From positions 1 through 55,317 of the forward strand of contig JAPOZO010000103.1 of assembly GCA_026706025.1 (NCBI GenBank): a stretch of 55,317 nt of DNA, given 5' to 3'. A model generated the notes under the pieces. The model saw only the letters and a program-made list of their open reading frames with translations. It was not told the origin of the DNA and searched no databases. Of this stretch, positions 17,350-49,064 are shown in pieces (position 1 is the first letter of the stretch; each line of letters opens with the position of its first letter). The translations under genes and the position numbers were made by a program. This stretch comes from Candidatus Poribacteria bacterium. GTDB lineage: Bacteria > Poribacteria > WGA-4E > WGA-3G.

Positions 17350-17681
17350 AACACTACGGTCTAACATTGAACCTAAAAAACGATCCGTCCGTTATAGAAA
17401 AATACAAAGCATATCACCGAGATGCCTGGCCTGAGGTCCTCGCTGCGTTGAAATCTGTCGGTATCACAAAGATGAATATTTATCTGCTCGGGTGCCGTCT
17501 GTTTATGGCGATGGAGACTGTTGACACATTTGATATAGAGCGCGACTTTCCACGCTATCTTGAAGAAAATCCAAAGTGTAAAGCCTGGGATGAATTGATG
17601 CGCACTTTCCAAGAACCGGTGGCAGAAGCACAACCAGACGAATGGTGGGCACACATGGAACCCGTTTTTGAATTATACTAA
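17346..17681 (+). CDS. rhaM: L-rhamnose mutarotase family protein
   Basis: 111 residues, close to RhaM/YiiL (104). Family hallmarks are visible: an N-terminal strand (GLTLNLK), YKAYHRDAWPEVLAALKSVGI with the conserved His, an aromatic pair, and the C-terminal WWAHMEPVFEL. RhaM interconverts the alpha and beta anomers of L-rhamnose. Homologs also act on L-fucose-like sugars, so the exact sugar is uncertain. The gene is coupled to the Nudix gene upstream, and the kinase start follows one base after its stop, giving a tight three-gene operon. Confidence 0.82.
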   Translation: MKHYGLTLNLKNDPSVIEKYKAYHRDAWPEVLAALKSVGITKMNIYLLGCRLFMAMETVDTFDIERDFPRYLEENPKCKAWDELMRTFQEPVAEAQPDEWWAHMEPVFELY

Positions 17682-17682
17682 A

Positions 17683-18534
17683 ATGAATACATCCCCCCAA
17701 AAGTCCACAACCTTTCTGTCAATTGGTCACTTCTGTTACGATGTCTCGCCAAAGGGTTACATTCTTGGTGGATCCGCCTCATACTCAACATTGACTGCGC
17801 GGAACCTTGGTCACCGTGCCCGCGCGGTTACGGCTGTCGGTGCCAACTTTGACCGGCGAAATTCGTTGTTAGACGGAATAGAAACGGTTTATCATGAATC
17901 CCCTGACACAACGATTTTTGACAACCAATACGACGAAAAGGGACATAGACAACAATTTATCTTAGGAATCGCGCAGCAACTCAAAGGGAACGATGTCCCT
18001 GCTGAATGGCGTAGAAGCAATATCGCGTACTTGTGTCCGATCGCAGATGAAGTTTCTGCTGAAGTCGTTCACTGTTTTAGCGCGGACACATTAATAGGTG
18101 CAACACCACAAGGTTGGCTTCGGCAATGGGATGCCAACGGTAGAGTCACAGCAAAGCGGTGGGAAACAGCGAAAGAGATTTTACCTTATATTGATGTACT
18201 AATCCTCAGCGATGAAGACCTTCGGAGCTATCCCGATGAATTAGAGAAATATATTGGCTTAGCACCTATTGTTGTGCTAACGCAGGGCGCACGAGGGGCA
18301 ACACTTTTTCAAAACGGCACACAGTTTGAATCCGAGGCATACCCTGTTACGGAGGTAGACCCGACGGGGGCAGGTGATGTTTTCGCCGCCGCTTTTTTAA
18401 TTAACTATTATCAAAACCGCTCAGTAGAGGCAGCCCTTAACTTCGCACACTGTGTCGCATCCTTCGCCGTAGAAGGTGCTGGCACCTCTTGTATTCCAAA
18501 GTTCGTAGAAGTTATGTCAAGACTACAAATATAG
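17683..18534 (+). CDS. PfkB-family carbohydrate kinase
   Basis: 283 residues from the ATG at 17683, one base past the preceding stop. A TTG-initiated form would start 15 bases earlier. The PfkB signature DPTGAGDVFAAAF with the catalytic Asp is near residue 232, and a glycine-rich GGSASY motif is near residue 25. It phosphorylates a sugar or nucleoside. The N-terminal lid region is short, as in adenosine/inositol/sugar kinases of the ribokinase superfamily. Operon with Nudix and rhamnose-mutarotase genes suggests a role in the same sugar pathway. Confidence 0.87.
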   Translation: MNTSPQKSTTFLSIGHFCYDVSPKGYILGGSASYSTLTARNLGHRARAVTAVGANFDRRNSLLDGIETVYHESPDTTIFDNQYDEKGHRQQFILGIAQQLKGNDVPAEWRRSNIAYLCPIADEVSAEVVHCFSADTLIGATPQGWLRQWDANGRVTAKRWETAKEILPYIDVLILSDEDLRSYPDELEKYIGLAPIVVLTQGARGATLFQNGTQFESEAYPVTEVDPTGAGDVFAAAFLINYYQNRSVEAALNFAHCVASFAVEGAGTSCIPKFVEVMSRLQI

Positions 18535-18601
18535 TGCGTCAGAGCCTTTCAACTTCGGTTTTCCGGTGCTTTTGTCAAGGAAGTCGCTATTCGGAGCGTG
18601 C

Positions 18602-18623
18602 TTCTACAGTGAAGAATGTAGAA
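18602..18623. other. Hairpin after the PfkB kinase gene
   Basis: TTCTACA, loop GTGAAGAA, TGTAGAA: a perfect 7-bp dyad 68 bases beyond the kinase stop codon. It has no T-run, so it is at best a weak terminator or processing site. Confidence 0.4.
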
Positions 18624-18723
18624 CCGACAGTCTAAAATTTCGGAAAACTAAATGGCCCTGCATAGTTCGTGAAAATTAGAGAGGATCGCTCTTAAAGAAA
18701 AAACACATTCGTGGGAAAAATTT

Positions 18724-27921: not shown

Positions 27922-28803
27922 TTACCGCCATGATGTTTCGTGTTGCCATCCTACAGCATTTTTGAGTTTGTCGCAATTGATAAACGATTGATGCCCCTGA
28001 AGCGCTCTCACTTTTGGAAGGAATTCGGGTTTAAAACGCGCAACGAGTTCTTGAGAAGGTTCCAATGCCGAAGTATCATCTGCGTTTAGAAAATAGACAT
28101 CGTGCGGCGACAGCATGTCTGCCTTTTCCATAATCAGGCGGTGCGCGCTGGCAACATCTTCACTGCCTACCCAACACCAGAGCCACGGTGTCCAAGCAGT
28201 TGTCGGTTTGGCATTTTCAGCCATCTGCTTTCGCCGTTCCTCTGGACTGATACCTGCCGGACGTGTAATATATGTTCGGATACCGTACGCACGGGTATAA
28301 CTCGCCAACAAATCCTCGCCGCAGCGTTTAGAGAAACTATAAGAATCTTCAGGGTAACACGGATGGTCTTCATCTATCGGCAGATAGTCTATGGGAATGT
28401 GGGTTTTGCTGATCCGAAACCCGTGTCCTAATGCGCAATTGCTGCCGGACATCACGACCGTTTGGACATCTGCCTCAATCGCGGCTTGCATGAGGTAGTA
28501 GGTGCCGAGCATGTTCGTTTTGAAGGTTGCATCGAAGGGGATACCCCTCTCTTCAGCACTTGCCCGTAAATCTGGGTGGTCTACGGGGCCCGGTTGTGCC
28601 CCGAGGTGTTGGATAGCGTCCACACCTTCAACGGCACGCTGACAGTCCTCAAAGTTGTTCAGATCGCCTTGAATAAAGGGCAGATGTGAGAATTCGTCGG
28701 GTGGCGTTCTGCGCGACATTAGTACCAGCGAGTGTTCTGTTGCCAATTCTCGGATCACATACTCGCCGAGTCTACCGCTTGCACCAGTTATCAATACTTT
28801 CAT
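27922..28803 (-). CDS. NAD-dependent epimerase/dehydratase (extended SDR)
   Basis: 293 residues from the ATG at 28803, which has AAAGGA upstream. The dinucleotide motif is TGASGRLGEY (6-15). The SDR active site YxxxK appears as Y-S-F-S-K in PEDSYSFSKRCGEDLL, and the serine of the triad is in VVMSGSNCALG. It acts on nucleotide sugars or related aldoses. An open frame runs 1.4 kb further upstream, but that stretch is the out-of-frame reading of the WD40 gene and is not a real fusion. The gap to the WD40 lipoprotein gene is 19 bases, so they may be cotranscribed. Confidence 0.85.
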   Translation of the reverse strand: MKVLITGASGRLGEYVIRELATEHSLVLMSRRTPPDEFSHLPFIQGDLNNFEDCQRAVEGVDAIQHLGAQPGPVDHPDLRASAEERGIPFDATFKTNMLGTYYLMQAAIEADVQTVVMSGSNCALGHGFRISKTHIPIDYLPIDEDHPCYPEDSYSFSKRCGEDLLASYTRAYGIRTYITRPAGISPEERRKQMAENAKPTTAWTPWLWCWVGSEDVASAHRLIMEKADMLSPHDVYFLNADDTSALEPSQELVARFKPEFLPKVRALQGHQSFINCDKLKNAVGWQHETSWR

Positions 28804-28822
28804 AAAACATCCTTTCATTATC

Positions 28823-30907
28823 TTATTTCGGTGTGATGTCCCACAATAACACTGTGCCGTCCCAACCCCCGCTGGCAAGCGTCTGTTCATCTGGACTAAA
28901 CGATACGCTATTGACCTGACTGGTATGCCCGGTGAGCGTTCGCAGGACATAACCAGTTTCGACATCCCACAAACGGATCGTGTCGTCAAAACTCCCACTG
29001 GCAAGCGTCTGTCCGTTCGGACTAAACGATACGCTTTTAACATCATCCGTATGCCCGGTGAGCGTTCGCAGCAGCCCGCCACTTCTAACATCCCATAAAC
29101 GGATCGTATCGTCATCGCTCCCGCTGGCGAGCACTTCACCATCAGGACTAAACGATACGCTACTGACACAATTCGTATGCTCCGCGACGGTACGCAGAAG
29201 ATTCCCAGTCCCAACATCCCATAAACGGACAGTTTCGTCCTTACCCCCGCTGGCGAGCACTTCACCATCAGGACTAAACGATACACTAATGACATAATCT
29301 GTATGTCCGGTGAGCGTCCGCAGGAGATCGCCAGTCCCAACATCCCACAGACGAATAGTTTTGTCAAAACTCCCGCTGGCAAGCGTCTGACCATCCGGAC
29401 TAAACGATACGCTATTGACATGATCGGTATGCCCGGTGAGCGTCCGCAGGCGGGTACCAGTCCCAACATCCCATAAACAGACAGTTTCGTCCCAACCCCC
29501 ACTGGCGAGCATTTGATTATCAGGACTAAATGACACACTAATAAGACTACTCGTATGTCCGATGAGGGTCCGCAGGAGGGTACCAGTCCCGGCATCCCAT
29601 AAACGGATAATTTTGTGATAATTCCCGCTATCTGCGAGCATCTGGCCATCCGGACTAAACGATACACTACTGACATGATACATATGTCCGGTGAGCGTCC
29701 GCAAGAGATTACCAGTCCCGACATCCCATAAACGAATAGCTTGGTCACCACTCCCACCGGTGAGCAACCACTTGTGTTTGCTGACAAGCGTCTCACCATC
29801 CGGACTAAACAAAACTCTAACGACACTTCCTGTCTGCTCCGTGAGCGTCCGCAGGAGGGTGCCAGTCCCAACATTCCATAAACGAATAGTTTTGTCAAAA
29901 CTCCCGCTGGCAAGCGTCTGACCATCCGGACTAAACGACACACACCTGACCTGACCGGTATGCCCGGTGAGCGTCCGCAGAAGATCGCCAGTCTCCACGT
30001 CCCATAAACGGATAGTTTTGTCTTTATTTCCAGCACTGGCAAGCACCTCACCATCAGGACTAAACGATACGTTTCTGACCCAATCTTTATGCCCCGCGAG
30101 GGTGTGCAGAAGGTCCCCGGTGCCGACATTCCATAAACAGACAGTTCCATCTTTACTCCAACTCGCAAGCACCTCACCATCAGGACTAAACAACATGCTT
30201 ATGATTGAATCTGTATGCCCTGTGATTGTCCGCTGGAGGCCGCGCCTTTTTACATTCCATAAATGGATAGTTTCCGCACTATTACTGGCGAGCATCTGCC
30301 CATCCGAACTAAACGAGAGACTAACGATACTACGTAACGAATACTCAGTGAGCGTTCGCAAGGGACCACCATTCTTTACATCCCATAAACGGATAGTTCT
30401 GTCCTCACTCCAGCTGGCAAGCACCTCACCATCCGGACTAAATGATACACTTCTGACCCAATCCTTATGCCCCGTGAGCGTGTGCAGGAGATGCCCACTC
30501 TGGACATCCCATAAACGGACAGTTTCGTCAAGACCACAACTGGCAAGCATCTGACTATCCGGACTAAACGAGATGCTATTGACATAATCTGTATGACCTG
30601 TAAGCAGGTTGCGTTCTTCACCGGTGTGTGCATCATATAGCCAAATACCAATGGTCCCCGATACCGCAAGGAGCGTGCCGTCCGGAGAATACTCGACATC
30701 AATTATTGAGCCTTTATTGAGGCGCGCTTTGACCCCTTCGGGTAGACCCCACGTCGTATGGGAAGCGCGAGCTTTCATAACACCCTTCTGTTCCTTGTGG
30801 ACCGAAACGGGACCCACACAACCCACAAAGTGAAACAGTATGAACAAAAGGGGTAATAACGCAACTAACAACCTGCTTGATTTCAGATAGCGTGCTCGGA
30901 TTTTCAT
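28823..30907 (-). CDS. WD40-repeat lipoprotein, 15 blades
   Basis: 694 residues. Basic N-terminus, hydrophobic stretch (LLVALLPLLFILFHFVGC) and a Cys at the end of it suggest lipoprotein export. From about residue 65 I count 15 WD40 units of roughly 42 residues with the usual FSPDG...RLWDV...LxGH pattern; 15 is two seven-bladed propellers plus one, or a variant arrangement. WD40 propellers are protein-interaction platforms. The first repeat has IWLYD in place of RLWD, exactly as in the three big WD40 proteins at 39.8-48.4 kb. A tnpB fragment ends only 10 bases upstream of its start codon. Confidence 0.85.
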   Translation of the reverse strand: MKIRARYLKSSRLLVALLPLLFILFHFVGCVGPVSVHKEQKGVMKARASHTTWGLPEGVKARLNKGSIIDVEYSPDGTLLAVSGTIGIWLYDAHTGEERNLLTGHTDYVNSISFSPDSQMLASCGLDETVRLWDVQSGHLLHTLTGHKDWVRSVSFSPDGEVLASWSEDRTIRLWDVKNGGPLRTLTEYSLRSIVSLSFSSDGQMLASNSAETIHLWNVKRRGLQRTITGHTDSIISMLFSPDGEVLASWSKDGTVCLWNVGTGDLLHTLAGHKDWVRNVSFSPDGEVLASAGNKDKTIRLWDVETGDLLRTLTGHTGQVRCVSFSPDGQTLASGSFDKTIRLWNVGTGTLLRTLTEQTGSVVRVLFSPDGETLVSKHKWLLTGGSGDQAIRLWDVGTGNLLRTLTGHMYHVSSVSFSPDGQMLADSGNYHKIIRLWDAGTGTLLRTLIGHTSSLISVSFSPDNQMLASGGWDETVCLWDVGTGTRLRTLTGHTDHVNSVSFSPDGQTLASGSFDKTIRLWDVGTGDLLRTLTGHTDYVISVSFSPDGEVLASGGKDETVRLWDVGTGNLLRTVAEHTNCVSSVSFSPDGEVLASGSDDDTIRLWDVRSGGLLRTLTGHTDDVKSVSFSPNGQTLASGSFDDTIRLWDVETGYVLRTLTGHTSQVNSVSFSPDEQTLASGGWDGTVLLWDITPK

Positions 30908-35199: not shown

Positions 35200-35283
35200 T
35201 AAATGGCAATTGATCAGCGTGCATCGTCTGCATCACGTCTGCGCCGAAGAGGTAGTATTGCAAAAGATGCACTATGATTATTT

Positions 35284-36348
35284 TCACTGGTGTGGCAATT
35301 TTTTCAAGATGGCTTCAGCGGATTGAATATAATTTTTATTTTTCCCTTGTTCAGCGACCCGCTGTAGATACATTTGTGCCAGTCCCGCTTCACCACGATA
35401 ATAGAATGTTAAGCCTATGTAGAATTCATAGGTCTCAACATGGATGTCGAATGCTCCATATTTTTCTCCTTGAATCAGTTTATCGCGCCACTTTAACCTA
35501 CTTCTTTCATACAGCAGATGACGATTATACAGCCGCAATAACTGAATGAGGAACTCGTCATTGTCGACATAGAATTTTGCGTTATTCAAGACATACGCGA
35601 TGCCATCCCAGGCATAGCAATTTATCCATGTCGGACGCTCCAATGTAGTGTCCAGATAAATTCCGTGGGGAATTTTGATTTCGTAAATGCCGTCGTTATC
35701 CAAGTCAACGTAGCCTTTAGCCAGATCTCCATGATACCCGTAGCGGCTGAAGACTACCCGGAACTCGCCTTTCTGAAACGAAATCACAGCAACGGCATTA
35801 CCGGCAAATTTAACCCATAAGTCTAAAGTGCCATCACCTGTCAAATCCACAACTTCAAAGGAGGCACCCCTATGTCCGTGACTATCTTTCGGCGGTTCTC
35901 TGAAAGTGAATGCGGGACTATGAAGTTCAATGGCTTTCGTTGGCACCTCAAAATCATGCTTACTCGTCTCAAAAAATGTAAAAAAATCTTTTTTCTTCGG
36001 AATCCCGCCCGTCCCAGTTTCATCAGCAATCAGCAGAAAGGCTTGGCCCCAGTCGTCCGTGTCTCCGCTCGTTCCTGTCTCAGCAAGGATTAGAACAATG
36101 GTTTCTTTTTCGGGGGTGTCATCAATATTCGCGGTGGCTTTCATCCAGGTATTGTAAAAGTGTCCTTTTGGTGCTGGGGTCGGAAAAAAGCGGTGATACT
36201 CTCGACCTTCAGAAAAATTCCATCGCGGATATCGTTGATACTCGACATCAGAGGTTTCGGGCGTTGAGGGGGCAGCACTGACTGCCCAACCGCTCAGCAT
36301 CAACGCGATAGAAAGCACCCAAAGGCAGCTTTGAGTATGTTTCTTCAT
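35284..36348 (-). CDS. Exported protein of tandem paralog array, copy 4
   Basis: 354 residues from the ATG at 36348, which has GGGAG upstream; an ATG at 36372 overlaps the stop of the preceding copy (ATGA). A signal peptide (LWVLSIALMLSGWAVSA) is followed by ANIDDTPEKE, VDLTGDGTLDLW and VDLDNDGIYEIKIP, three Asp-rich loops that resemble calcium-binding VCBS/FG-GAP propeller turns. The C-terminal 80 residues (FYIGLTFYYRGEAGLAQMYL) look like a TPR-type helical pair. Last in transcription order of four tandem paralogs. No family is recognised; the label VCBS-like is by motif only. Confidence 0.75.
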   Translation of the reverse strand: MKKHTQSCLWVLSIALMLSGWAVSAAPSTPETSDVEYQRYPRWNFSEGREYHRFFPTPAPKGHFYNTWMKATANIDDTPEKETIVLILAETGTSGDTDDWGQAFLLIADETGTGGIPKKKDFFTFFETSKHDFEVPTKAIELHSPAFTFREPPKDSHGHRGASFEVVDLTGDGTLDLWVKFAGNAVAVISFQKGEFRVVFSRYGYHGDLAKGYVDLDNDGIYEIKIPHGIYLDTTLERPTWINCYAWDGIAYVLNNAKFYVDNDEFLIQLLRLYNRHLLYERSRLKWRDKLIQGEKYGAFDIHVETYEFYIGLTFYYRGEAGLAQMYLQRVAEQGKNKNYIQSAEAILKKLPHQ

Positions 36349-36368
36349 AATTATTGGCTCCCATATTT

Positions 36369-37442
36369 TCATTTTGGTGGTGACGGCAATTTTTTCAAGA
36401 TAGACTCAGCGGCTTGAATATAATTTTCATTCTTGCCTCGTTCAGTGACATGCCATAGGTACGCGCGCGCCCTTGCCTCATTGCCACCATAATAGTGCGC
36501 TAAGCCCATGTAGAATTCACACGTCTCAGCATAGAAGGCAAATTTTCCAGACTTAATGAGTTCAATCCGTTGAGGCGTCCACTTTGAGATCTCTCTTTCT
36601 CGCCTCAGCCAAGCGTTATAGTGTATCATGAGTTGAATCAAGATGTCATTACCACGTGTATAGAATTTGGCGTTATTCAAGACATACATGTTTCCATTCC
36701 ACTCATAGAGGTTTATCCATGTGGGACGTTCCGTTTTAGGATCGCGCGGGTAAACACTGTAGGGCATCTTGATTTCATAGATGCCATCATTATCCAAGTC
36801 AACGTATGTCTTAGCCAGATCTCCATGATCCCCGTAGCTGCCGAAAATTTGCCTGAACTCGCCGTTCTGAAACGAAATCACAGCAACAGCATAGCCAAAT
36901 TCAACCCATAAATCTAAGGTGCCATCGTCCGTCAAATCAATGAGTTCAAAGGAGACACTCTGAGCTTTATGAGAATCTTTCGGTGGTACCCAGAAGACGA
37001 ACGGAGGGTTCTGAAGTTCAATGGCTTTCGCGGCTGGCACCTCCAACGCATGCGTCCCCGAATCAAAAAGTTTGAAAAAGGCCTTTTGATTCGGCAGACC
37101 TTCCTCGGTCTCAGCTTCAGTAATCAGGAGAAACATTTGTACCCAGTTGCTGGAGAACACGTCCCTGCTTGTAGCAGCAACCACTATAACAACGCTCTCT
37201 TTTTCAGGCGTATCATCAATATTTGCAGACGCTTGGATCCGGGTATCGTAAAAGAGTCCCTCTGGTGCCGGGGCAGGCAAAAAACTGTGATACTTTTGAC
37301 CATCAGGATCATTTGGGGACTCGTAATAATAATACTCGACTGCAGAATTTGTCGTCTTAGAGGTATCCGCATTTACAGCAAAAGAACTGAGTAGCAGCGA
37401 AATACAAAGTGCTAAAAGTGTGGTTTGAAGATGCGACTTCAT
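36369..37442 (-). CDS. Exported protein of tandem paralog array, copy 3
   Basis: 357 residues from the ATG at 37442, which shares the leader ATCGGAGACAAAAACC with copy 2. An ATG at 37487 overlaps the stop of copy 2 and would add 15 residues before the signal peptide. Signal peptide LLALCISLLLSSFAVNA. Asp-rich loops at ANIDDTPEKE, IDLTDDGTLDLW and VDLDNDGIYEIKMP. A conserved core WINLYEWNGNMYVLNNAKFY is followed by a C-terminal helical tail ending in YIQAAESILKKLP. Same family as its three neighbours; function unknown. Confidence 0.75.
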   Translation of the reverse strand: MKSHLQTTLLALCISLLLSSFAVNADTSKTTNSAVEYYYYESPNDPDGQKYHSFLPAPAPEGLFYDTRIQASANIDDTPEKESVVIVVAATSRDVFSSNWVQMFLLITEAETEEGLPNQKAFFKLFDSGTHALEVPAAKAIELQNPPFVFWVPPKDSHKAQSVSFELIDLTDDGTLDLWVEFGYAVAVISFQNGEFRQIFGSYGDHGDLAKTYVDLDNDGIYEIKMPYSVYPRDPKTERPTWINLYEWNGNMYVLNNAKFYTRGNDILIQLMIHYNAWLRREREISKWTPQRIELIKSGKFAFYAETCEFYMGLAHYYGGNEARARAYLWHVTERGKNENYIQAAESILKKLPSPPK

Positions 37443-37483
37443 GGTTTTTGTCTCCGATTCGGTTGTCTGATGTCGGTTTATTT

Positions 37484-38563
37484 TCATCTTTGCGGCGGTG
37501 GTGATTTCCAGATAGATTTTATGGCTTGAATGTAATCTTGATTCTGTCCATGTTCAAGGATCCACTGTAATTCCGATGGCATTCCGTCCAGATCATGGTA
37601 GCGTATCAACTCGTTTGCCACGCTTGAGAAACTTATTTTGCTCTGACGATAGTAGTGTACCAGCCCTAAGTAGAATTTGTATGTCTCGCACAAGTTGATA
37701 ATACTTCCATGTCGCAGCAGCGTATAATTATATTCGTTCAATAGGCGAATGAGGAACTCGTTATTATCGGCATAGAATTTTCGGTTATTCAAGACATAAT
37801 CGGTGCCATCCCACTCGTAAAGGCTCACCCACGGCAGGTTAGGCGCGCCAGGAACCTCGTCAACAGGTATGCTATAAGGTATCTTGATTTCGCAGGTGCC
37901 ATCATTATTCAAGTCAACGTACTCAGCATTAGGCAAAAGCCCGGAAACCGTGTAGCAGCTGAAGATTACCTTGAACTCGCCATCCTGAAACGAAATCACA
38001 GCAACAGCATAGCCGAATTCAACCCAGATATCTAAAGTGCCATCGCCCGTCAAATCAACGAGTTTAAAGGTTGCAGCATTGCGAGACTTCAGAGAATCTT
38101 TCGGCGGCTCAGTGAAGACGAACGCCGGACTCTGAAGTTCAATAGGTTTTGCGGCTGGTACCTCCAACGCATGCGTCCCCGAATCAAAAAGCTTGAAAAA
38201 GGCTTTTTTCTTCAACACGCCTGCCTCGGTTTCATCAGCGATCAAGAGAAATGCTTGGACCCACTTGCCTGCGAATGGGTAGTACTCCGTTGTAGGAACA
38301 TCAAGCAGCATTAAAACAACGGACTCTCTTTCGGGGGTGTCATCAATATTAGCGGCGGCTTTCAGCCGAGTGTTGTAAGAGAGTTCTTTCGGTGCAGTGA
38401 CCGGAAAAAAACGGTGATACTTTTGACCCTCACGCCAAGAATACCGTTGATACCGGATATCAGAATTTGTCGTTTTAGAGGTATCCGCATTCACGATAGA
38501 AAAAGAACTGAGTAGCAGCAAAATATAAAATGCTAAAAGTGTGGTTTGAAGATATGGCTTCAT
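37484..38563 (-). CDS. Exported protein of tandem paralog array, copy 2
   Basis: 359 residues. The ATG at 38563 has TCGGAGACAAAAACC directly before it, the same leader as copy 3, direct evidence for duplication of gene plus leader. Signal peptide LLAFYILLLLSSFSIVNA. Asp-rich loops: ANIDDTPERE, VDLTGDGTLDIW and VDLNNDGTCEIKIP. The last loop has Asn-for-Asp and carries a Cys absent from the other copies. The C-terminal helical part is altered (FSSVANELIRYHDLDGMPSE) relative to the family, so this copy diverges most there. Function unknown. Confidence 0.75.
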   Translation of the reverse strand: MKPYLQTTLLAFYILLLLSSFSIVNADTSKTTNSDIRYQRYSWREGQKYHRFFPVTAPKELSYNTRLKAAANIDDTPERESVVLMLLDVPTTEYYPFAGKWVQAFLLIADETEAGVLKKKAFFKLFDSGTHALEVPAAKPIELQSPAFVFTEPPKDSLKSRNAATFKLVDLTGDGTLDIWVEFGYAVAVISFQDGEFKVIFSCYTVSGLLPNAEYVDLNNDGTCEIKIPYSIPVDEVPGAPNLPWVSLYEWDGTDYVLNNRKFYADNNEFLIRLLNEYNYTLLRHGSIINLCETYKFYLGLVHYYRQSKISFSSVANELIRYHDLDGMPSELQWILEHGQNQDYIQAIKSIWKSPPPQR

Positions 38564-38628
38564 GGTTTTTGTCTCCGATTTGACCGGTCTGATGTTAAAC
38601 GCGGGCAGTTAATTTTTTCAAACCCAAT

Positions 38629-39657
38629 CTATCTTCGTGGTTTCGCCAGTTTTTTCAAGAGGAACTCAGCGGCTTGAATATAATCTTGTGCTTTATCCAT
38701 TTGGGTATACTTTCGCTTCTCAGCATGTTCGACGACCCATTGTAGGTGCTTTCTCGCCATTACTGCATTGCCGCGATAATAGAATACCAATCCTAAGTAG
38801 AAACTGTATGGCTCATATCTTCCATATCGAACCAACAGATCATTGTACTGGTCCAATAATGCAATGAGAAACTCGTCATTCTCGGCATAGAATCTTTCGT
38901 TATTCAAGACGTAAGTGTTTCCATCCCACTCGTAGAGGCTTATCCATCGCACATATCGCACCCCCGGAAGATCGACCATATGTATGCTGTATGGAAGCTT
39001 GATTTCGTAGACACCATCATTATCCAAGTCAACATATTCTGGACTCTGATGCCTAGGGTTCATATAGTAGCTGAAGACTACTTTGAACTCGCCATTCTGA
39101 AACGAAATTACAGCAATAGCCTCACCAAGGTCAAACCATACGTCTAAAATGCCATCGCCTGTCAAATCTACGAGGCTAAAGGGGACACCGTGCCCCGGAT
39201 AACTCCCTGAGGCAAAGACGAAGGGTGGCTTCTGAAATTCAATGGCTTTCGCTGGATCATTGAGATCAGAAGTGGCTGAACCCAAAAATTTAAAAAATGC
39301 TTTTTTCTTCGGCACACCTGTCTCGGTTTCATCAAGAACCAGCAGAAACGCGTGTGACCAGTTGCCCGCGAATGCATCATGTCCTGAATCAGCAACTATT
39401 GAAACAATGGTCTCTTTTTCCGGGGTGTTATCAATATTTGCAATGACTCTCTGCCGAGTATCGTAAAAGAGTCCTTCTGGTGCCGGACCAGAAAAAAAAC
39501 GGTGATACCTTTGCCCTTCGGGATCACTTGGAAAATCGTAATAGTGAGACTTGACCTCAGAAGTTTTAGGGGTTGCGGTATCAGCACTGACTGTCCAACT
39601 GTTGAGTATCAACCAGATAGAAAGCCCGAAAAGAAGGGGTTGGATGTATTTTGCCAC
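38629..39657 (-). CDS. Exported protein of tandem paralog array, copy 1
   Basis: 342 residues. The start codon is GTG at 39657 with AGGAG eight bases upstream. Signal peptide LLFGLSIWLILNSWTVSA. The family core is present: ANIDNTPEKE, VDLTGDGILDVW, VDLDNDGVYEIKLP, then WISLYEWDGNTYVLNNERFY and a C-terminal helical tail ending in YIQAAEFLLKKL. First in transcription order of the four and preceded by the WD40 gene cluster on the same strand. Short spacing throughout (41-65 bases or overlaps) suggests one operon. Confidence 0.75.
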   Translation of the reverse strand: MAKYIQPLLFGLSIWLILNSWTVSADTATPKTSEVKSHYYDFPSDPEGQRYHRFFSGPAPEGLFYDTRQRVIANIDNTPEKETIVSIVADSGHDAFAGNWSHAFLLVLDETETGVPKKKAFFKFLGSATSDLNDPAKAIEFQKPPFVFASGSYPGHGVPFSLVDLTGDGILDVWFDLGEAIAVISFQNGEFKVVFSYYMNPRHQSPEYVDLDNDGVYEIKLPYSIHMVDLPGVRYVRWISLYEWDGNTYVLNNERFYAENDEFLIALLDQYNDLLVRYGRYEPYSFYLGLVFYYRGNAVMARKHLQWVVEHAEKRKYTQMDKAQDYIQAAEFLLKKLAKPRR

Positions 39658-39776
39658 AATTTTTTCTCCTATACATTGTTAGATTTCAATCCGTGTGATG
39701 TCAGACAAAGTAGGTGTCGGTAAACTATTGACGTGAGTTCGGTATAAAATACACAAAAACTCGGATTTCATGAAAT

Positions 39777-42554
39777 TCAGTCAAAAACGGATTCCGGTGT
39801 GAGTCCCCACAACAGCACTGTGCCGTCCGGACTGCCAGTAATGAGCGTCTCTCCATCCGGCGAAAACGCAACGCTATTGATGCCCCCTGTATGCCCTGTG
39901 AATATGCGGACGCGGAGACGGTTGGCGGTGTTCGCATCCCATAAACGCACTGTACGATCCTGGCTGCCAGTCGCGAAAATCTCTCCATCCGGCGAAAACG
40001 CAACGCTATTGACCCAATCAGCATGCCCTGTGAGTGTGCGGATCGGATTGCCCGTGTTGGCATTCCACAAACGCACCGTATTGTCACGACTCCCGCTAAC
40101 GAGAGTCTCCCCATCCGGCGAAAGTGCCACACTATTGACCCAATCCGTATGCCCTGTGAGTGTGCGGAGGAGGGTGACAGTGTCCGCTTCCCATAACCGG
40201 AGTGTCTTGTCCCAACCGCTGCTAACGATAGTCTCCCCATCCGGCGAAAACGCAATGCTACGGATCCTACTTGTATGCCCCGTGAATGTTCGGAGGAGTT
40301 TTCCGGTGTTCGTCTCCCATAACCGGAGCGTACTGTCCCGACTTCCGCTAACGATAATCTCCCCATCTGGTGAAAACGATACACTACCAACTCCATCCGT
40401 ATGCCCTGTGAATGTTCGGACGAGGTCACCCGTGTTCGCATCCCATAAACGCACCGTATTGTCACGATCCCCGCTAACGATGGTCTCGCCATTGGGTGAA
40501 AACGCAACACTATTGCCACCATCCATATGCTCTATGAGTGTGTAGAGAAGGGCACCGGTACTTGCATCCCATAAACGCACTGTATTACTCACACTAATGA
40601 TCGTTCGTCCATTGGGCGAAAACGCTACGCTCTCGACCCAAGAATGTCCATACCTCCCGAATGCTCGGAGGCGTTCGCCCGTGTTCACATCCCATAAACG
40701 AAGCGTATCGTCCTGAGTCCCACTAACGATGGTCTCTCCATCCGGTGAAAACGATAAGCTCTTGACCGAACTGTTATCCTTTGTGAATGTTCGGACGAGA
40801 TCGCCGGTATTCACATCCCATAAACGGATATTGTAATGACTCGCGCTAGCGAACGTCTGTCCATCCGGCGAAAACGCTATACTCTCGACTGAATTTGTAT
40901 ACTTTGTGAGTGTTTGAATGAGGTTGCCAGTGTCTACATCCCATAAACGGATTGTATCGTCACTACTACCGCTAACGATTGTTCGTCCATCGGGTGAAAG
41001 GGCTACACTATTGACCCCATCTGTATGCCCCGTAAATGTTCGGACGATGTGACCGGTGTTCACATCCCATAAACGCACCGTACTGTCCCAACTCGTGCCA
41101 AGGATTGTTTGTCCATCGGGAGAAAACAATACATTATCAATCGAACTCCTATACCCCTCGCGTGTGTGAATGGGGTTACCGGTGTTCGCATCCCATAAAC
41201 GGAGGGTGCCGTCCCACCCCCCGCTAACGAGTGCCTGTCCATCCGGCGAAAACGCTATGCTCTCAATCGAACTCGGATATCCCGAGCGTGTTCGGAGGAG
41301 GTTGCCTGTGTCCACATCCCATAACCGGAGCGTATCGTTCCGACTGGCACTAACGATCGTTTTTCCATCGGGTGAAAACGATACATTCTCGACCCAATCT
41401 ACATGCCCTATCAGTGTTCGGAGAAGTTTGCCCGTGTTCGCATCCCGTAACTGGACTGTCTTGTCCTTGCTACCAATAGCGATCGTTCGTCCATCAGGTG
41501 AAAATGCTACGCTAAGGACCGGACGCATATCCTCTCTGAATGTTCGGAGGAGGTTGCCCGTGATTGCATCCCATAAACGCACCGTACGGTCCTGACTCCG
41601 AGTAGCGATCGTTCGTCCATTAGGCGAAAACGCTACGCTAAGGATCCAACCTGTATGCTCTGTGATTGTGTCGATGACGGCGCGGGTATTTACATTCCAT
41701 AACCGGACCGTTTTATCGCTACTGCCACTAACTATCGTTCGTCCATCCGGCGAAAACGCTACACTATTCACTGAATCTACATGCCCTGCGAATGTGTGGA
41801 GGAGATCGCCGGTCTCAACAGCCCATAAACACATCGTCCTGTCCCGACTCGCACTAATAACTGTCTTACCATCAGGCGAAAACACTACGCTCTTAACCGA
41901 ATACGTATGCTCCATGAGTGTGTGGAGGAGTTTGCCAGTATCAACATCCCATAAACGCACCATCCTATCACTACTGCCGCTAACGAGCGTCTCACTATCC
42001 GGGCTAAAGCCTACGCTACTGACCGAAGCCCTATGCCCTGTGAATATACGGACGAGGTCGCCCGTGCTGGTATCCCATAACCGGACCGTCTTGTCACTAC
42101 TGCCGCTAATGATAGTCCCTCCGTCTGGACTAAACGCTACGCTATTGATGCCCCCCGTATGCCCTGTGAATGTCCGGACGGGATTGCCAGTGTTTGTGTC
42201 CCATAAACGGACCGACTTGTCCCGACTCCCGCTAATGATAGTCTCGCCATCCGGACTAAACGCTACGCTATTGACCACATCCGTATGCCCTACGAGCAGA
42301 TCGAGTTCTTCACCTGTCTCCACGTCATAAAGCCAAATACCGACACTACTCGCCACAGCAAGGCGCGCACCATCGGGGGCGTAGGCAAGCGCGGAATAAG
42401 CGGTTTCGCTTATCCAGCCTTTACCGAGACGCGCTTTCGCACCCTCAGGTAGACGTAGTTGCATATAACCCTCATACTCGGCGAAGGTTTCCGATAAGGA
42501 CAGCGTTGAAATCAAAATAAATGCCAAAAAAATCGAAAACAACTTTGCTTTCAT
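39777..42554 (-). CDS. Exported 21-blade WD40 protein, copy 3
   Basis: 925 residues. A signal peptide (KLFSIFLAFILISTLSLSET) ends near FAEYEG. A short linker (LPEGAKARLGKGW) is followed by 21 WD40 units of about 42 residues; the first has a degenerate IWLYD strand as in every homolog here. Twenty-one blades would form three stacked seven-bladed propellers (inference from the count). The N-terminal seven or so blades are almost identical to copy 2, whereas blades 8-17 diverge. GGAGACTTTCC precedes the ATG, a leader shared with the other two. WD40 propellers bind proteins; the ligand and cell-surface location are unproven. Confidence 0.85.
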   Translation of the reverse strand: MKAKLFSIFLAFILISTLSLSETFAEYEGYMQLRLPEGAKARLGKGWISETAYSALAYAPDGARLAVASSVGIWLYDVETGEELDLLVGHTDVVNSVAFSPDGETIISGSRDKSVRLWDTNTGNPVRTFTGHTGGINSVAFSPDGGTIISGSSDKTVRLWDTSTGDLVRIFTGHRASVSSVGFSPDSETLVSGSSDRMVRLWDVDTGKLLHTLMEHTYSVKSVVFSPDGKTVISASRDRTMCLWAVETGDLLHTFAGHVDSVNSVAFSPDGRTIVSGSSDKTVRLWNVNTRAVIDTITEHTGWILSVAFSPNGRTIATRSQDRTVRLWDAITGNLLRTFREDMRPVLSVAFSPDGRTIAIGSKDKTVQLRDANTGKLLRTLIGHVDWVENVSFSPDGKTIVSASRNDTLRLWDVDTGNLLRTRSGYPSSIESIAFSPDGQALVSGGWDGTLRLWDANTGNPIHTREGYRSSIDNVLFSPDGQTILGTSWDSTVRLWDVNTGHIVRTFTGHTDGVNSVALSPDGRTIVSGSSDDTIRLWDVDTGNLIQTLTKYTNSVESIAFSPDGQTFASASHYNIRLWDVNTGDLVRTFTKDNSSVKSLSFSPDGETIVSGTQDDTLRLWDVNTGERLRAFGRYGHSWVESVAFSPNGRTIISVSNTVRLWDASTGALLYTLIEHMDGGNSVAFSPNGETIVSGDRDNTVRLWDANTGDLVRTFTGHTDGVGSVSFSPDGEIIVSGSRDSTLRLWETNTGKLLRTFTGHTSRIRSIAFSPDGETIVSSGWDKTLRLWEADTVTLLRTLTGHTDWVNSVALSPDGETLVSGSRDNTVRLWNANTGNPIRTLTGHADWVNSVAFSPDGEIFATGSQDRTVRLWDANTANRLRVRIFTGHTGGINSVAFSPDGETLITGSPDGTVLLWGLTPESVFD
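41798..42452. repeat. Long near-identical tract shared with 44681-45335 (first copy)
   Basis: 655 bp that I read as identical, base by base, to 44681-45335. It covers the first five blades and linker of the WD40 gene. Immediately outside, the two genes show scattered substitutions. This marks recent duplication or gene conversion. Confidence 0.8.
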
Positions 42555-42653
42555 GGAAAGTCTCCTCTTTTTAACGATGGACGAATTGATTGAATCGGTA
42601 AACTATTGACGTGAGTTCGGCATAAAATACACAAGGCTCAGATCTCATGAAAT

Positions 42654-45437
42654 TCATTCAAAAACGGAGCCCGGTATGAGTTCCCACAACAAGACTGTGC
42701 CGTCTGAACTCCCGGTAACGAGCGTCTCTCCATCCGGCGAAAACGCAATGCTATTCACTTCACGCGTATGCCCCGTGAATATGCGGACACGGAGGCGGTT
42801 GGCGGTGTTCGCATCCCACAAACGCACCGTACGGTCCTGACTGCCAGTCGCGAAAATCTCTCCATTCGGCGAAAACGATACGCTATTAACCCAATCAGCA
42901 TGTCCTGTGAGTGTACGGATCGGGTTACCCGTGTTTGCATCCCACAAACGGACTGTATTGTCTCGACTCCCGCTAACAAGCGTTTGTCCATCCGGCGAAA
43001 ACGATACGCTCTCGACGGAACTCGTATGATCCGTGAGTGTCCGAATGAGGGTGACGGTATCTGCTTCCCATAACCGAAGTGTCTTGTCCCAACCGCTGCT
43101 AACGATAGTCTCGCCATCAGGTGAAAACACAACGCCACGGATCCTACTCGTATGCCCCGTGAATGTTCGGATGAGTTTTCCGGTGTTCACATCCCATAAA
43201 CGGATCGCCTTGTCCCAACTGCTACTAATGATCGTTTGTCCATCCGGCGAAAACGATACGTTATTGACACCATTCGCAAGTTCTGTAAATGTTCGGATGC
43301 GTTTGCCCGTATTCGCGTCCCATAAACGAATCTTATTGTCTCCACCACCGCTAACGAATGTCTCTCCATCCGGCGAAAACGATACGCTATTGACACCATT
43401 GGTATGTCCCATGAGTATGTGGAGGAGGTCGCCGGTAGTCGCATCCCATAAACGGACCGACTTGTCTGGACTCCCACTAACGATCGTTCGTCCATCCGGT
43501 GAAAACGATACGCTATCGACCGAATGCCAATGCGCTGTGATTGTTCGGATGAGTTTTCCGGTGCTCACATCCCATAAACGGAGGATGCCGTATCTGGATC
43601 CATCCTCCCCGGTAACGAGAGTCTCTCCATCCGGCGAAAACGATACGCTTCTGACCGAAGACGTATTTTTTACAAGCGTTTGATTGCCCGTATTCACATC
43701 CCATAAACGGATCGTACCCTCCCTACCGCCGCTAACGATTGTTCGTCCATCCGGCGAAAACGCTACGCTATCGACTGCCTTCTTATGCCCCGTGAGCGTT
43801 CGGAAGAGGTTGCCGGTGTCTGCATCCCATAAGCGGATCGTACCGTCCCTACTGCCGCTAACGATTGTTCGTCCATTCGGCGAAAATGCTACGCCACTGA
43901 CCCCATCCGTATGTCCTATGAATGTTCGGATAATGTTGCCCGTGTTCGCGTCCCATAAACGGATACTGTTCCAACTCGCGCCAAGGATCGTTTTTCCATT
44001 CGGCGAAAACGATACATTATCAATCCAACTCCTATACCCCTCGCGTGTGTGAATGGGGTTACCAGTGTTCGCATCCCATAAACGGAGGGTGCTATCCCAA
44101 CCCCCGCTAACGAGTGCCTGTCCATCCGGCGAAAACGCTACACTCTCAACCGAACTCGGGTATCCGGAGCGTGTTCGGATGAGTTTTCCGGTGTTCGCAT
44201 CCCATAAACGGAGCGCATTGTTCCGACTCGCGCTAACGATCGTTTTTCCATCCGGCGAAAACGCTACACTATCGACCCCATCCGTATGCCCTATGAGTGT
44301 TCGGAAGAGTTTGCCAGTGTTCGCCTCCCATAACTGGACTATCTTGTCCTGGTTGCCAATAGCGATCGTTCGTCCATCCGGAGAGAACGCAACGCTAAGC
44401 ACCGGACTCGTGTGCTTCGTGAGTGTTCGGATGAGTTTTCCGGTGTTCGCATCCCATAAACGGAGTGTATTATTCTGACTGCCAGTCGCGATGGTTTTTC
44501 CATCGGGCGAAAACGCTACGCTAAGGACCCAACCTGTATGCTCTGTGAGTGTGTCGATGACAGCGCGAGTGTTCACATTCCATAACCGGACTGTTTTGTC
44601 GCTACTGCCGCTAACTATCGTTCGTCCATCCGGCGAAAACGCTATGCTATTCACTGAATCCACATGCCCTGCGAATGTATGGAGGAGATCGCCGGTCTCA
44701 ACAGCCCATAAACACATCGTCCTGTCCCGACTCGCACTAATAACTGTCTTACCATCAGGCGAAAACACTACGCTCTTAACCGAATACGTATGCTCCATGA
44801 GTGTGTGGAGGAGTTTGCCAGTATCAACATCCCATAAACGCACCATCCTATCACTACTGCCGCTAACGAGCGTCTCACTATCCGGGCTAAAGCCTACGCT
44901 ACTGACCGAAGCCCTATGCCCTGTGAATATACGGACGAGGTCGCCCGTGCTGGTATCCCATAACCGGACCGTCTTGTCACTACTGCCGCTAATGATAGTC
45001 CCTCCGTCTGGACTAAACGCTACGCTATTGATGCCCCCCGTATGCCCTGTGAATGTCCGGACGGGATTGCCAGTGTTTGTGTCCCATAAACGGACCGACT
45101 TGTCCCGACTCCCGCTAATGATAGTCTCGCCATCCGGACTAAACGCTACGCTATTGACCACATCCGTATGCCCTACGAGCAGATCGAGTTCTTCACCTGT
45201 CTCCACGTCATAAAGCCAAATACCGACACTACTCGCCACAGCAAGGCGCGCACCATCGGGGGCGTAGGCAAGCGCGGAATAAGCGGTTTCGCTTATCCAG
45301 CCTTTACCGAGACGCGCTTTCGCACCCTCAGGTAGGCCTAATTGCGTATAGCTTTCATATTCAGCGAAGGTTTTGGGTAAGGACAGCATTGAAATCACAA
45401 TAAGTGCCAAAAAAACCGAAAACAACTTTACTTTCAT
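42654..45437 (-). CDS. Exported 21-blade WD40 protein, copy 2
   Basis: 927 residues from the ATG at 45437, with GGAGACTTCCC upstream. A ten-codon extension to 45467 is in frame but has no ribosome binding site. Signal peptide KLFSVFLALIVISMLSLPKT. Again 21 WD40 units, with the same variant first blade. Blades 1-6 match copy 3 nearly perfectly; the terminal four blades also match it closely, while the middle has diverged, including a unique loop GEDGSRYG in blade 14 and a truncated blade 13. The 3-prime flank (42595-42620) repeats 39717-39742 exactly, so the duplicated unit included downstream DNA. Confidence 0.85.
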   Translation of the reverse strand: MKVKLFSVFLALIVISMLSLPKTFAEYESYTQLGLPEGAKARLGKGWISETAYSALAYAPDGARLAVASSVGIWLYDVETGEELDLLVGHTDVVNSVAFSPDGETIISGSRDKSVRLWDTNTGNPVRTFTGHTGGINSVAFSPDGGTIISGSSDKTVRLWDTSTGDLVRIFTGHRASVSSVGFSPDSETLVSGSSDRMVRLWDVDTGKLLHTLMEHTYSVKSVVFSPDGKTVISASRDRTMCLWAVETGDLLHTFAGHVDSVNSIAFSPDGRTIVSGSSDKTVRLWNVNTRAVIDTLTEHTGWVLSVAFSPDGKTIATGSQNNTLRLWDANTGKLIRTLTKHTSPVLSVAFSPDGRTIAIGNQDKIVQLWEANTGKLFRTLIGHTDGVDSVAFSPDGKTIVSASRNNALRLWDANTGKLIRTRSGYPSSVESVAFSPDGQALVSGGWDSTLRLWDANTGNPIHTREGYRSWIDNVSFSPNGKTILGASWNSIRLWDANTGNIIRTFIGHTDGVSGVAFSPNGRTIVSGSRDGTIRLWDADTGNLFRTLTGHKKAVDSVAFSPDGRTIVSGGREGTIRLWDVNTGNQTLVKNTSSVRSVSFSPDGETLVTGEDGSRYGILRLWDVSTGKLIRTITAHWHSVDSVSFSPDGRTIVSGSPDKSVRLWDATTGDLLHILMGHTNGVNSVSFSPDGETFVSGGGDNKIRLWDANTGKRIRTFTELANGVNNVSFSPDGQTIISSSWDKAIRLWDVNTGKLIRTFTGHTSRIRGVVFSPDGETIVSSGWDKTLRLWEADTVTLIRTLTDHTSSVESVSFSPDGQTLVSGSRDNTVRLWDANTGNPIRTLTGHADWVNSVSFSPNGEIFATGSQDRTVRLWDANTANRLRVRIFTGHTREVNSIAFSPDGETLVTGSSDGTVLLWELIPGSVFE
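44681..45335. repeat. Long near-identical tract shared with 41798-42452 (second copy)
   Basis: Second copy of the 655-bp tract described at 41798. Offset between copies is 2883 bp, the length of one WD40 gene plus spacer. Confidence 0.8.
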
Positions 45438-45485
45438 GGGAAGTCTCCATTTTTTAAGGTTACCCAAGATAGGTCACTGATATTT

Positions 45486-48380
45486 TTATTGAGGTGTTTG
45501 TTCCGAACCGTCAAAGGCCCGTGCTGGTGTGAGTTCCCACAACAGCACTGTACCGTCATGACTCCCGCTAATGACAGTCTCGCCATCAGACGAAAACGCC
45601 ACGCTATAAACCAAACTCGTATGTCCTGTGAATGTGCGGATGATGTCGCCAGTGTTCGTATCCCATAAACGCACCGTATTGTCAGCACTCCCGCTAACGA
45701 GCGTCTCGCCATCCGGACTAAACGCTACGCTAAGGACCGGTCCCGTGTGCTCCGTGAATGTACGCACGAGGGTGCCCGTCTTCGCATCCCATAACCGGAG
45801 CGTATTGTCATGACTCCCGCTAACGATAGTCTCGCCATCCGGAGAAAATGATACGCTACGGACCGAATATGTATGTCCCTTGAGTGTGCGAATAAAGTTG
45901 AGGGTGTTTGCATCCCATAATATGATCGTCCTGTCATCACTTCCGCTAACGAGTGTCCCGCCATCCGGACTAAACGCGACGCTAAGGACCGAACCGGCAT
46001 GCCCTGTGATTGTACGGATGAGGGTGCCCGTGCTCGTATCCCATAAATGAAACATCGTGTCGCGATGCCCACTGCTAACGAGTGTCTCGCCATCGGGAGA
46101 AAACGATACACTATCAACCCCATAGGCATGCCCTCTGAACGTGCGAATAGAGTTGCCGGTGTTCGCATCCCATAACCGGAGCGTCTTGTCAGCACTCCCA
46201 CTTACAATAGTCTGTCCATCGGGTAAAAACAATACGCTCTTGACTGAATCCGTATGCCCCTCGAATGTGTGGAGGAGGTTCCCCGTGTCTGCATCCCATA
46301 ACCGGAGCGTCTTGTCAGCACTCCCACTAACGAGCCTCTCTCCATTGGAAGAAAACCCAACACTCTTGACTGAATCCGTATGCCCTGTGATTGTTCGAAT
46401 GAGGGTGCCCGTGTCTGTATCCCATAACCGGAGCGTTTTGTCATCGCTCCCACTAACGACAGTCTGTCCATCCGGTGAAAACCCAACGCTCTTGACATGA
46501 TCCGTATGCCCCTTGAATGTGCGGAGGAGCTCGCCCGTGCTTGCATCCCATAAATAGATTGTATGGTCCCAACTATTGCTAACGATCGTCTGTCCATCGG
46601 GAGAAAACGCTACATTCTCAACCCAACTCTTATGTACGAATGTGCGGAGGAGCTCGCCCGTGCTCGCATCCCATAAACGCGCCGTATTATCCTCACTCCC
46701 GCTAACAATTCTCTCTCCATCCGAACTAAACCTCACACACTTGATTGAACCCATATGTCCCATGGATGATACACCCCTGATTGGACCCATATGTCGCTTG
46801 AATTTGCGTATGAGATTGCCCGTATTCGCATCCCATAAATAGAGTCTCTTGTCATAACCGCCGCCAACGATAATCCGTCCATCAGGTGAAAACGCCACAC
46901 TATTAATCCAGCTCGTATACCCGGTGCGTGTTCGGATGAGGTCGCCTGTGTCCGCATCCCATAAACGGATCCTACCGTCCGAACCGCCGCTAACGAGCGT
47001 CTTTCCATTCGGAGAAAACGCTACGCTACTGACCAAATACGCATGCTCTGGAGGTGTGCGGACGAGGCTGCCCGTGTTCGCATCCCATAAACGAATCATA
47101 CTATTACTTTCGCTAACGATAGTTTTTCCATCTGGCGAAAACGCTACGCTATTGACCTGATTCGTGTGTTCTGTGAGTGTTCGGATGAGGTCGCCCGTGC
47201 TCGCATCCCATAAACGCATCGTATTGTCCGAGTTTCCGCTAACGAGCGTCTTTCCATCCGGAGAAAACGCTACGCTATAGACCGAACTCGTATACCCTGT
47301 GAATGTGTGGATGATGTTGCCCGTGTTCGCATCTCGTAAACGTACTGTATCCTTCAGAACGCCAGGATAGGTAGTTCGTCCCATCTTTGAATTTAATAAA
47401 AGGAGCGTATCGTCCTGACTGTGAGTAGCGATAGTGCGTCCATCGGGTGAAAACGTCACACTATAGACCGAACGCATCTCCTCCGTGAATGTGCGGATGA
47501 GGTTGCCCGTATTCGCATCCCATAAACGCACCGCGTCGTCCCCACCTCCACTAACAATACGCTCTCCATCGGGTGAAAACGCCACGCTATTGACCGAACT
47601 CAGATGCCCCTTGAGTGTGCGGATGAGGTTGCCCGTATTCGCATCCCATAAATGGACCGTTGAAGGGTTCCAACCTCCGCTAACAATAGTTTCTCCATCG
47701 GGAGAAAACACTACGCTATAGATCGAACCTTTATGGCCTGTGAGTGTGCGGATGAGGTTGCCCGTGCTCGCATCCCATAACCGGACCGTCATGTCCTCAC
47801 TCCCACTGACAATAGTTTCTCCATCTGGCGAAAACGCTACGCTACGGATCCAACTTTTATGGCCTGTGAGTGTGCGGATGAGGTCACCCGTGTTCTCATT
47901 CCATAACCGTACCGTCATGTCCTCACTCCCGCTCACAATACGCTCCCCATCTGGACTAAGGGCTACGCTCTTGACCTCCCCCGCATGCCCTGTAAATGTT
48001 CGGATGGGATCGCCCGTGTTCGCATTCCATAACCGTACCGTCTTGTCCCCACTTCCGCTCACTATATGCTCGCCATCTGGACTAAAGGTCACGCTATTGA
48101 CCACATCCGTATGCCCTACGAGCAGGTCAAGTGCTTTACCAGTCTCCACGTCATAAAGCCAAATACCGACACTACTCGCCACAGCAAGGCGGGTGCCATC
48201 GGGGGCGTAGGCAAGCACGACATCTGCGATATCGTTTATCCAGCCTTTACCGAGACGCGCTTTCGCACCCTCAGGTAGACCTAATTGCATATAACTCTCA
48301 TACTCAGCGAAAGTCTTGGATAAGGACAGCGTTGAAATCACAATAAGTGCCAAAAAAATCGAAAACAACTTTGCTTTCAT
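45486..48380 (-). CDS. Exported 21-blade WD40 protein, copy 1
   Basis: 964 residues, first of the three in transcription order. Signal peptide KLFSIFLALIVISTLSLSKT. It shares the leader GGAGACTTCCC, the EYESYMQLGLPEGAKARLGK linker and the same degenerate first blade with its paralogs, but most blades differ from them in sequence. I count 21 blades again. Blades 7 and 12 carry insertions (TTYPGVLKD and VSSMGHMGS) that lengthen them, and a Gln/Thr-rich tail DGSEQTPQ ends the protein. The fixed count of 21 across three divergent genes argues for structural constraint. Function unknown. Confidence 0.85.
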   Translation of the reverse strand: MKAKLFSIFLALIVISTLSLSKTFAEYESYMQLGLPEGAKARLGKGWINDIADVVLAYAPDGTRLAVASSVGIWLYDVETGKALDLLVGHTDVVNSVTFSPDGEHIVSGSGDKTVRLWNANTGDPIRTFTGHAGEVKSVALSPDGERIVSGSEDMTVRLWNENTGDLIRTLTGHKSWIRSVAFSPDGETIVSGSEDMTVRLWDASTGNLIRTLTGHKGSIYSVVFSPDGETIVSGGWNPSTVHLWDANTGNLIRTLKGHLSSVNSVAFSPDGERIVSGGGDDAVRLWDANTGNLIRTFTEEMRSVYSVTFSPDGRTIATHSQDDTLLLLNSKMGRTTYPGVLKDTVRLRDANTGNIIHTFTGYTSSVYSVAFSPDGKTLVSGNSDNTMRLWDASTGDLIRTLTEHTNQVNSVAFSPDGKTIVSESNSMIRLWDANTGSLVRTPPEHAYLVSSVAFSPNGKTLVSGGSDGRIRLWDADTGDLIRTRTGYTSWINSVAFSPDGRIIVGGGYDKRLYLWDANTGNLIRKFKRHMGPIRGVSSMGHMGSIKCVRFSSDGERIVSGSEDNTARLWDASTGELLRTFVHKSWVENVAFSPDGQTIVSNSWDHTIYLWDASTGELLRTFKGHTDHVKSVGFSPDGQTVVSGSDDKTLRLWDTDTGTLIRTITGHTDSVKSVGFSSNGERLVSGSADKTLRLWDADTGNLLHTFEGHTDSVKSVLFLPDGQTIVSGSADKTLRLWDANTGNSIRTFRGHAYGVDSVSFSPDGETLVSSGHRDTMFHLWDTSTGTLIRTITGHAGSVLSVAFSPDGGTLVSGSDDRTIILWDANTLNFIRTLKGHTYSVRSVSFSPDGETIVSGSHDNTLRLWDAKTGTLVRTFTEHTGPVLSVAFSPDGETLVSGSADNTVRLWDTNTGDIIRTFTGHTSLVYSVAFSSDGETVISGSHDGTVLLWELTPARAFDGSEQTPQ

Positions 48381-48887
48381 GGGAAGTCTCCACTTTTTAA
48401 GGATGGACGTATCAAAAATAGAACTTACGCATTCCGTCTTAAAGTCCCCCTGATAAGGGGGATTTAGGGGATTTAAAGGACGAAAATTCCTGCTTTTTAC
48501 GTCTAAATGTCCGATATTTGCGCAATTTGCGTAAGTCCTAAAGAAAAGAAATTTTCTCTGAATCTACACAATTCTCAGGAGAAAGGTGGTAACTTAACGC
48601 AAATATTATAAAAATAATAAGCAAGAATCATACCAACGCAGAAATGCGAATAAAATGGACAGATAATTTGGGAAAATGTGTGTTATTCAACACAATAGGG
48701 AAGGGATATTCAGGGAACTGTATCAAATTGAAAACACATTGATACGGTTCATCAGCGGCATATTTGCTTTGTTAGAAAGGTTTAGTCAAACATCGCAGGG
48801 ATACTCGGTGGTACGGGATGTTTCAACAGGTTCGCGGTATTCTAACAGATCACGGACTTCTGTTTCGACGCTTTGGCGACGATACGT
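48381..48887. other. AT-rich gap upstream of the WD40 cluster
   Basis: About 500 bases. A MITE-like element occupies 48421-48538. The rest is AT-rich without a credible gene; the 167-codon plus-strand open frame starting at 48676 runs antisense through the zinc-ribbon gene and resembles no protein. Confidence 0.6.
48421..48538. mobile_element. MITE-like element with GGACTTACGCA-type ends
   Basis: Left end GAACTTACGCA and right end TGCGTAAGTCC are inverted copies with one mismatch. The interior has the hairpin TCCCCCT-GATA-AGGGGGA (7 bp) followed by a G-rich TTTAGGGGATTT, a pattern seen in many small bacterial MITEs. The element lies 40 bases upstream of the first WD40 gene and could carry its promoter. 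Confidence 0.7.
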
Positions 48888-49064
48888 TTACTCATCTTCT
48901 TCGACAGGCGTAAAGACGAGTCCACAACTGCTGCATCGATATCCGCTCTCTGGTTTCGATTCCACAACAGGGAAAAGCATACCACAACAGATAGGGCACG
49001 GTTCGTCAATTTCCATTTCGGCTTGTTCCATTTCGCCTGAGCGATTTTCAAATTCAACGATCAC
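48888..49064 (-). CDS. Small zinc-ribbon protein
   Basis: 58 residues from a GTG at 49064. AAAGGAGG sits six to seven bases before the GTG, so the earlier in-frame ATG at 49112 is rejected. Two CxxC-type knuckles, CPICCG near 24-29 and YRCSSCG near 44-50, make a classic zinc ribbon; the N-terminus is Glu-rich. Such proteins often serve as DNA- or RNA-associated accessory factors, but function is not known. It follows the rhodanese gene at the tail of the SUF-associated cluster, separated by about 190 bases. Confidence 0.7.
   Translation of the reverse strand: MIVEFENRSGEMEQAEMEIDEPCPICCGMLFPVVESKPESGYRCSSCGLVFTPVEEDE

Follow-up and report, generated by a model that had tools for sequence, protein, structure and literature searches.

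Four tandem genes on the minus strand of a 55,317-nucleotide stretch of DNA from a sponge-associated Candidatus Poribacteria bacterium (hereafter the window; contig C103 in a genome of 6.27 Mb) code for exported proteins. These constitute a divergent, lineage-restricted subfamily of the VCBS/FG-GAP β-propeller superfamily. Homology, the predicted fold, the conservation pattern, purifying selection and the apparent joint gain or loss of one DNA block with WD40 genes came from the tools used in this analysis. On this basis we favour, with moderate confidence, a role for the family as Sec-exported, Poribacteria-specific VCBS/FG-GAP propellers that serve as calcium-stabilised binding scaffolds together with WD40 partners.

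The four paralogous ORFs (35284–36372, 36369–37487, 37484–38563 and 38629–39657, minus strand) lie at 35284–39657, where the first-pass annotation had placed them, and copies 2–4 are 51–55% identical to copy 1. In a whole-genome search the paralogs match at E 1e-86 or better, which excludes chance. The ORF calls of copies 1 and 2 are overlong; their starts were trimmed to 36348 and 37442 because of Shine-Dalgarno sites (GGAG and GGGAG) and the family alignment. Two additional copies are located on contig C10 of the same genome. The features of the window are as follows.

35284..36348, minus strand: family copy 1 (P0001); the ORF call extends to 36372, likely start 36348
36369..37442, minus strand: family copy 2 (P0002); the ORF call extends to 37487, likely start 37442
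37484..38563, minus strand: family copy 3 (P0003), as the ORF
38629..39657, minus strand: family copy 4 (P0004); GTG start with GGAG upstream
36103..36129, minus strand: first acidic loop (NIDDTPEKE) in copy 1, at the A-B turn of blade 1 (located from residue numbers)
35821..35847, minus strand: second acidic loop (DLTGDGTLD) in copy 1, at the A-B turn of blade 2 (model and alignment)
35680..35706, minus strand: third acidic loop (DLDNDGIYE, a canonical DxDxDG) in copy 1, at the A-B turn of blade 3 (model and alignment)
35299..35559, minus strand: predicted helical TPR-like tail of copy 1, residues 272–358 (model; the tail of a long-form relative matches the YbgF TPR domain)
39777..42554, minus strand: first secreted WD40-repeat protein, immediately upstream of the array
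42654..45467, minus strand: second secreted WD40-repeat protein
45486..48380, minus strand: third secreted WD40-repeat protein
about 35214..48894, no strand assigned: 13.7-kb block with four family and three WD40 genes, missing at the same site in six congeners

All four copies carry signal peptides, as had been proposed. These are of the Sec type, end in AxA-like sites (VSA/A, VNA/D) and contain no lipobox cysteine. Copies 2 and 3 have almost identical leaders: aatcggagacaaaaaccATG.

The AlphaFold model of copy 1 (mean pLDDT 73.8, pTM 0.71) consists of a signal helix, three four-stranded antiparallel blades in a propeller arrangement (strands 71–135, 171–208 and 220–262) and helices (272–358). 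Structural matches over residues ∼ 45–268 (VIA-align) are mainly propellers, such as DDB1, integrin αV (Z 7.8, 193 residues aligned) and integrin αIIb. Although the Z-scores are middling (best 8.5), the listed folds are consistent, and the FG-GAP_3 sequence match described below independently points the same way. The periplasmic lysozyme inhibitor PliI is also listed, at Z 7.2, a score within the common range. No Foldseek match of the short form reached E 0.001. A sequence search of the family profile against solved structures gave nothing significant; its best match (acyl carrier protein, E 0.03) was judged to be chance, and a fungal integrin-like lectin appeared at E 1.4. Profile comparison without overlap detected a weak relation between blades 2 and 3 only (probability 43%) and did not show internal repetition of blade 1 with the other blades, which are too unlike. 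The TPR-like character suggested for the C-terminal tail is supported by the helices of the model and, weakly, by sub-threshold matches in relatives: in the long forms TPR_2 and TPR_6 score 14–17 bits versus Pfam cut-offs of 26–27. The long-form tail aligns with the YbgF TPR domain over 82 residues at Z 7.9, which is middling for helical folds.

The four window copies score 22.2 bits or less against Pfam FG-GAP_3, under the cut-off of 26.9 that eight of ten long forms exceed (34 bits; up to 35.3). Across the family, 28 of 40 members match this model at E < 0.01; the NCBIfam search gave no significant match. The acidic loops had been likened to FG-GAP/VCBS calcium loops, and indeed all three fall at A-B turns of predicted propeller blades, the position at which VCBS and integrin propellers bind calcium (PMC8023676, PMC3192720) and at which DxDxDG is their signature (PMC8023676). 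The motif is canonical in loop 3 (DLDNDG), near-canonical in loop 2 (DLTGDG) and degenerate in loop 1 (NIDDTP). No FG...GAP/Cage motif as defined in PMC3192720 was seen in the family alignment, nor FG...GAP residues beside the loops. The proteins had been described as an unrecognised family, and no curated family does span their full length; the superfamily, however, is a known one, given the long forms that pass FG-GAP_3 and the loops at the A-B turns.

The long form comprises ∼ 520 residues. Its model (pLDDT 66, pTM 0.50) has about five sets of strands, with four clear blades and a fifth that is poorly defined. The first halves of the long forms (the first two blades) fall into a clade of their own (20 of 20, 98%) apart from the second halves, and the second parts belong to a separate clade shared with some short forms (97%). 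Judged by these sequence relationships, the long form is a fusion to which one paralog lineage contributed its first two blades and another a complete member. Intragenic duplication was considered as its origin and ruled out by the separate clade of the first halves.

We tentatively raise the possibility that the short proteins, with three blades being too few for ring closure, are natural sub-propellers and that two chains, possibly different tandem paralogs, assemble 3+3 into a six-bladed ring, an arrangement that we regard as rather doubtful. If true, it would give combinatorial binding surfaces, and the five-blade fused form would be a step toward a single-chain ring. Among β-propellers, natural oligomers are reported to make up only a minute share (PMC9218822).

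A profile of 40 relatives places the family in 21 of 84 genomes of the phylum, all of one Poribacteria family and two genera. A scan of 84,980 species with a single protein, which is sensitive to close relatives only, found it in Poribacteria only, and phages, plasmids and viral contigs yielded no relatives. The relatives form tandem arrays, several with split or interrupted members. Each of the four window copies has its own orthologs in sister species (99–100% bootstrap support), with dN/dS between orthologs of 0.17–0.33, compared with 0.05–0.12 for the flanking enzyme genes and 0.25–0.27 for the WD40 neighbour. The array is therefore old and maintained. The window paralogs are under purifying selection; the family evolves faster than its housekeeping neighbours, and positive selection is not detectable, being ruled out by dN/dS. 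The local duplication suggested by the first-pass annotation is borne out by the tandem arrangement, but the copies are not recent: one-to-one orthology rules out recent duplication.

These data also bear on the idea that this is a neutral, decaying multigene family, maintained by tandem duplication alone and lacking a specific function in common with WD40 proteins. Its patchy occurrence, a copy number that differs among genomes and, in several relatives, split or interrupted copies would be expected on that account, but the intact window copies, each with one-to-one orthologs and low dN/dS, make it unlikely. At synonymous sites, the family and WD40 genes of the window (35284–42554) have diverged from those of L081 and L086 about 0.4–0.6 times as much as the flanking genes, a possible sign of transfer, of gene conversion or of a constraint on codons.

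The tandem secreted WD40 proteins (39777–48380) are 925–964 residues long. Over their first 100 residues, the second and third are 85–90% identical to the first, and this N-terminal stretch of the first has 49 matches in the genome. At a strict E-value the Pfam WD40 model returned 0 genes, a result that is uninformative as a WD40 gene count. Both kinds of gene occupy the window site in five genomes (that of the window, L081, L086, L088 and L090); neither does so in six congeners, where the flanking genes are joined without WD40 or family genes (in L106 the flanks are only ∼ 32 bases apart). Given the relatedness of these genomes, and because five of the six block-free ones were chosen for lacking the family altogether (G005 carries it elsewhere), the distribution of 5/5 versus 0/6 is suggestive, rather than a clean test, of WD40 and family genes having been gained or lost together as one DNA block. 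Inspection of the block's large ORFs revealed neither an integrase nor a transposase. The WD40-to-family order recurs in L081, L084, L086, L087, L088, L090 and L099; in L093 a family copy is flanked by WD40 genes, and in L049 a WD40 gene lies three genes away. Several other family arrays have no WD40 gene nearby, thus the pairing is not obligatory.

Other ORFs recur beside the arrays or in the window. On contig C10 (L049:11782–14682), a 966-residue ORF appears by eye to combine an ECF-type sigma factor, a hydrophobic stretch and leucine-rich repeats; ORFs with similar N-termini occur at L084:4095–6995, L087:13771–16737, L095:13783–15981 and L083:15143–17383, and sigma-factor/leucine-rich-repeat-like ORFs adjoin several family arrays. 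A tandem family of ∼ 220 residues starting MEPRFTRGEY is found at L049:7091–9290 and 17249–18718 and at L083:12446–14650, with five copies close to the C10 family pair. In the window (27922–30907), two long ORFs on the minus strand overlap each other out of frame. An epimerase domain occupies only the C-terminal part of one, and the WD40 N-terminal stretch has a match in the other; the long epimerase ORF has therefore probably been extended too far.

The three acidic loops and the invariant YVLNN core that had been noticed in the paralogs were upheld. Among 40 relatives the invariant residues are N82, T86, P87 and E90 in loop 1, D176-L177-T178, D180-G181 and D184 in loop 2, and D223 and E231 in loop 3, together with W249, W255, G257, L262, N264 and Y268. 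The A-B loops are the best-conserved loops (mean entropy 0.28, 0.21 and 0.67 bits) and the B-C loops are variable (2.73, 1.33 and 1.96 bits); variability is highest in the B-C loops and the blade 2–3 connection, with length ranges up to 6–16 residues. In propellers, A-B and B-C loops lie on opposite faces, which suggests a calcium face with a structural role and, on the other side, a face diversified for recognition.

In the proposed mechanism, the acidic A-B loops of the three blades, all on one face, probably bind calcium. The opposite face, with its B-C loops and one blade-to-blade loop of variable length and sequence, is a candidate ligand-recognition surface. VCBS propellers are typically linked to carbohydrate recognition (PMC9218822). 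The C-terminal TPR-like unit may make contact with a partner protein; the secreted WD40 propellers, whose genes lie immediately upstream, are plausible candidates. The tandem copies would then provide a small set of binding scaffolds beyond the inner membrane, at the symbiont surface or matrix, for a putative carbohydrate or protein ligand; we infer calcium binding, this localisation, ligand and partner alike.

Propeller scaffolds also include lyases and glycosidases. The proteins could accordingly be periplasmic calcium-stabilised enzymes or enzyme accessories with invariant polar residues lining an active site, and both the invariant polar and aromatic set (W249, W255, N264, Y268, D223 and E231) and some glycan-acting propellers among the Foldseek matches, at weak E-values, point that way. 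Most invariant residues, however, sit in the A-B calcium loops or look structural, and no enzyme family matched in Pfam or NCBIfam; we consider an enzymatic role quite improbable. That the DxDxDG loops are EF-hand or dockerin-like and dock cohesin-like partners instead of closing propeller blades is very improbable, since predicted strands rather than helices flank them and FG-GAP_3 scores much higher than the sub-threshold EF-hand matches, even though dockerin-like C-termini were read by eye in other proteins of the genome.

We retain the binding-scaffold interpretation as the best supported. In poribacterial single-cell genomes VCBS (pfam13517), WD40 and TPR proteins are unusually abundant, and host interaction has been speculated (PMC3909097). 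These eukaryote-like repeat proteins are among the closest known systems to the present family, but counts of that type would largely miss it because its short form is mostly below the Pfam cut-off. The literature searched contained no description of this family; the protein class is already known, and the three-blade-plus-tail layout, the five-blade fusion and the block-wise linkage are new. Three-blade and fused five-blade relatives would allow blade-number change and short-propeller assembly to be tested. For sponge symbiosis, the data point to two linked kinds of secreted scaffold, apparently gained or lost together, as a defined target.

The secreted WD40-repeat proteins of Poribacteria resemble the family in being exported, propeller-type, adjacent, co-directional and expanded in the same genomes, but they belong to a different blade family, lack calcium loops and are present in many more copies. 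Also among the closest known systems are the VCBS/FG-GAP β-propellers (PF13517 FG-GAP_3, PF01839 FG-GAP; integrin α head, PVL-type lectins). The family shares with them the DxDxDG-like loop between strands A and B, predicted four-stranded blades, long forms above the Pfam cut-off and a structural match to integrin propellers. It differs in its low number of blades, three for the short form and about five for the long, in its TPR-like tail and in a blade 1 loop altered to N-x-D-x-T-P-x-x-E.
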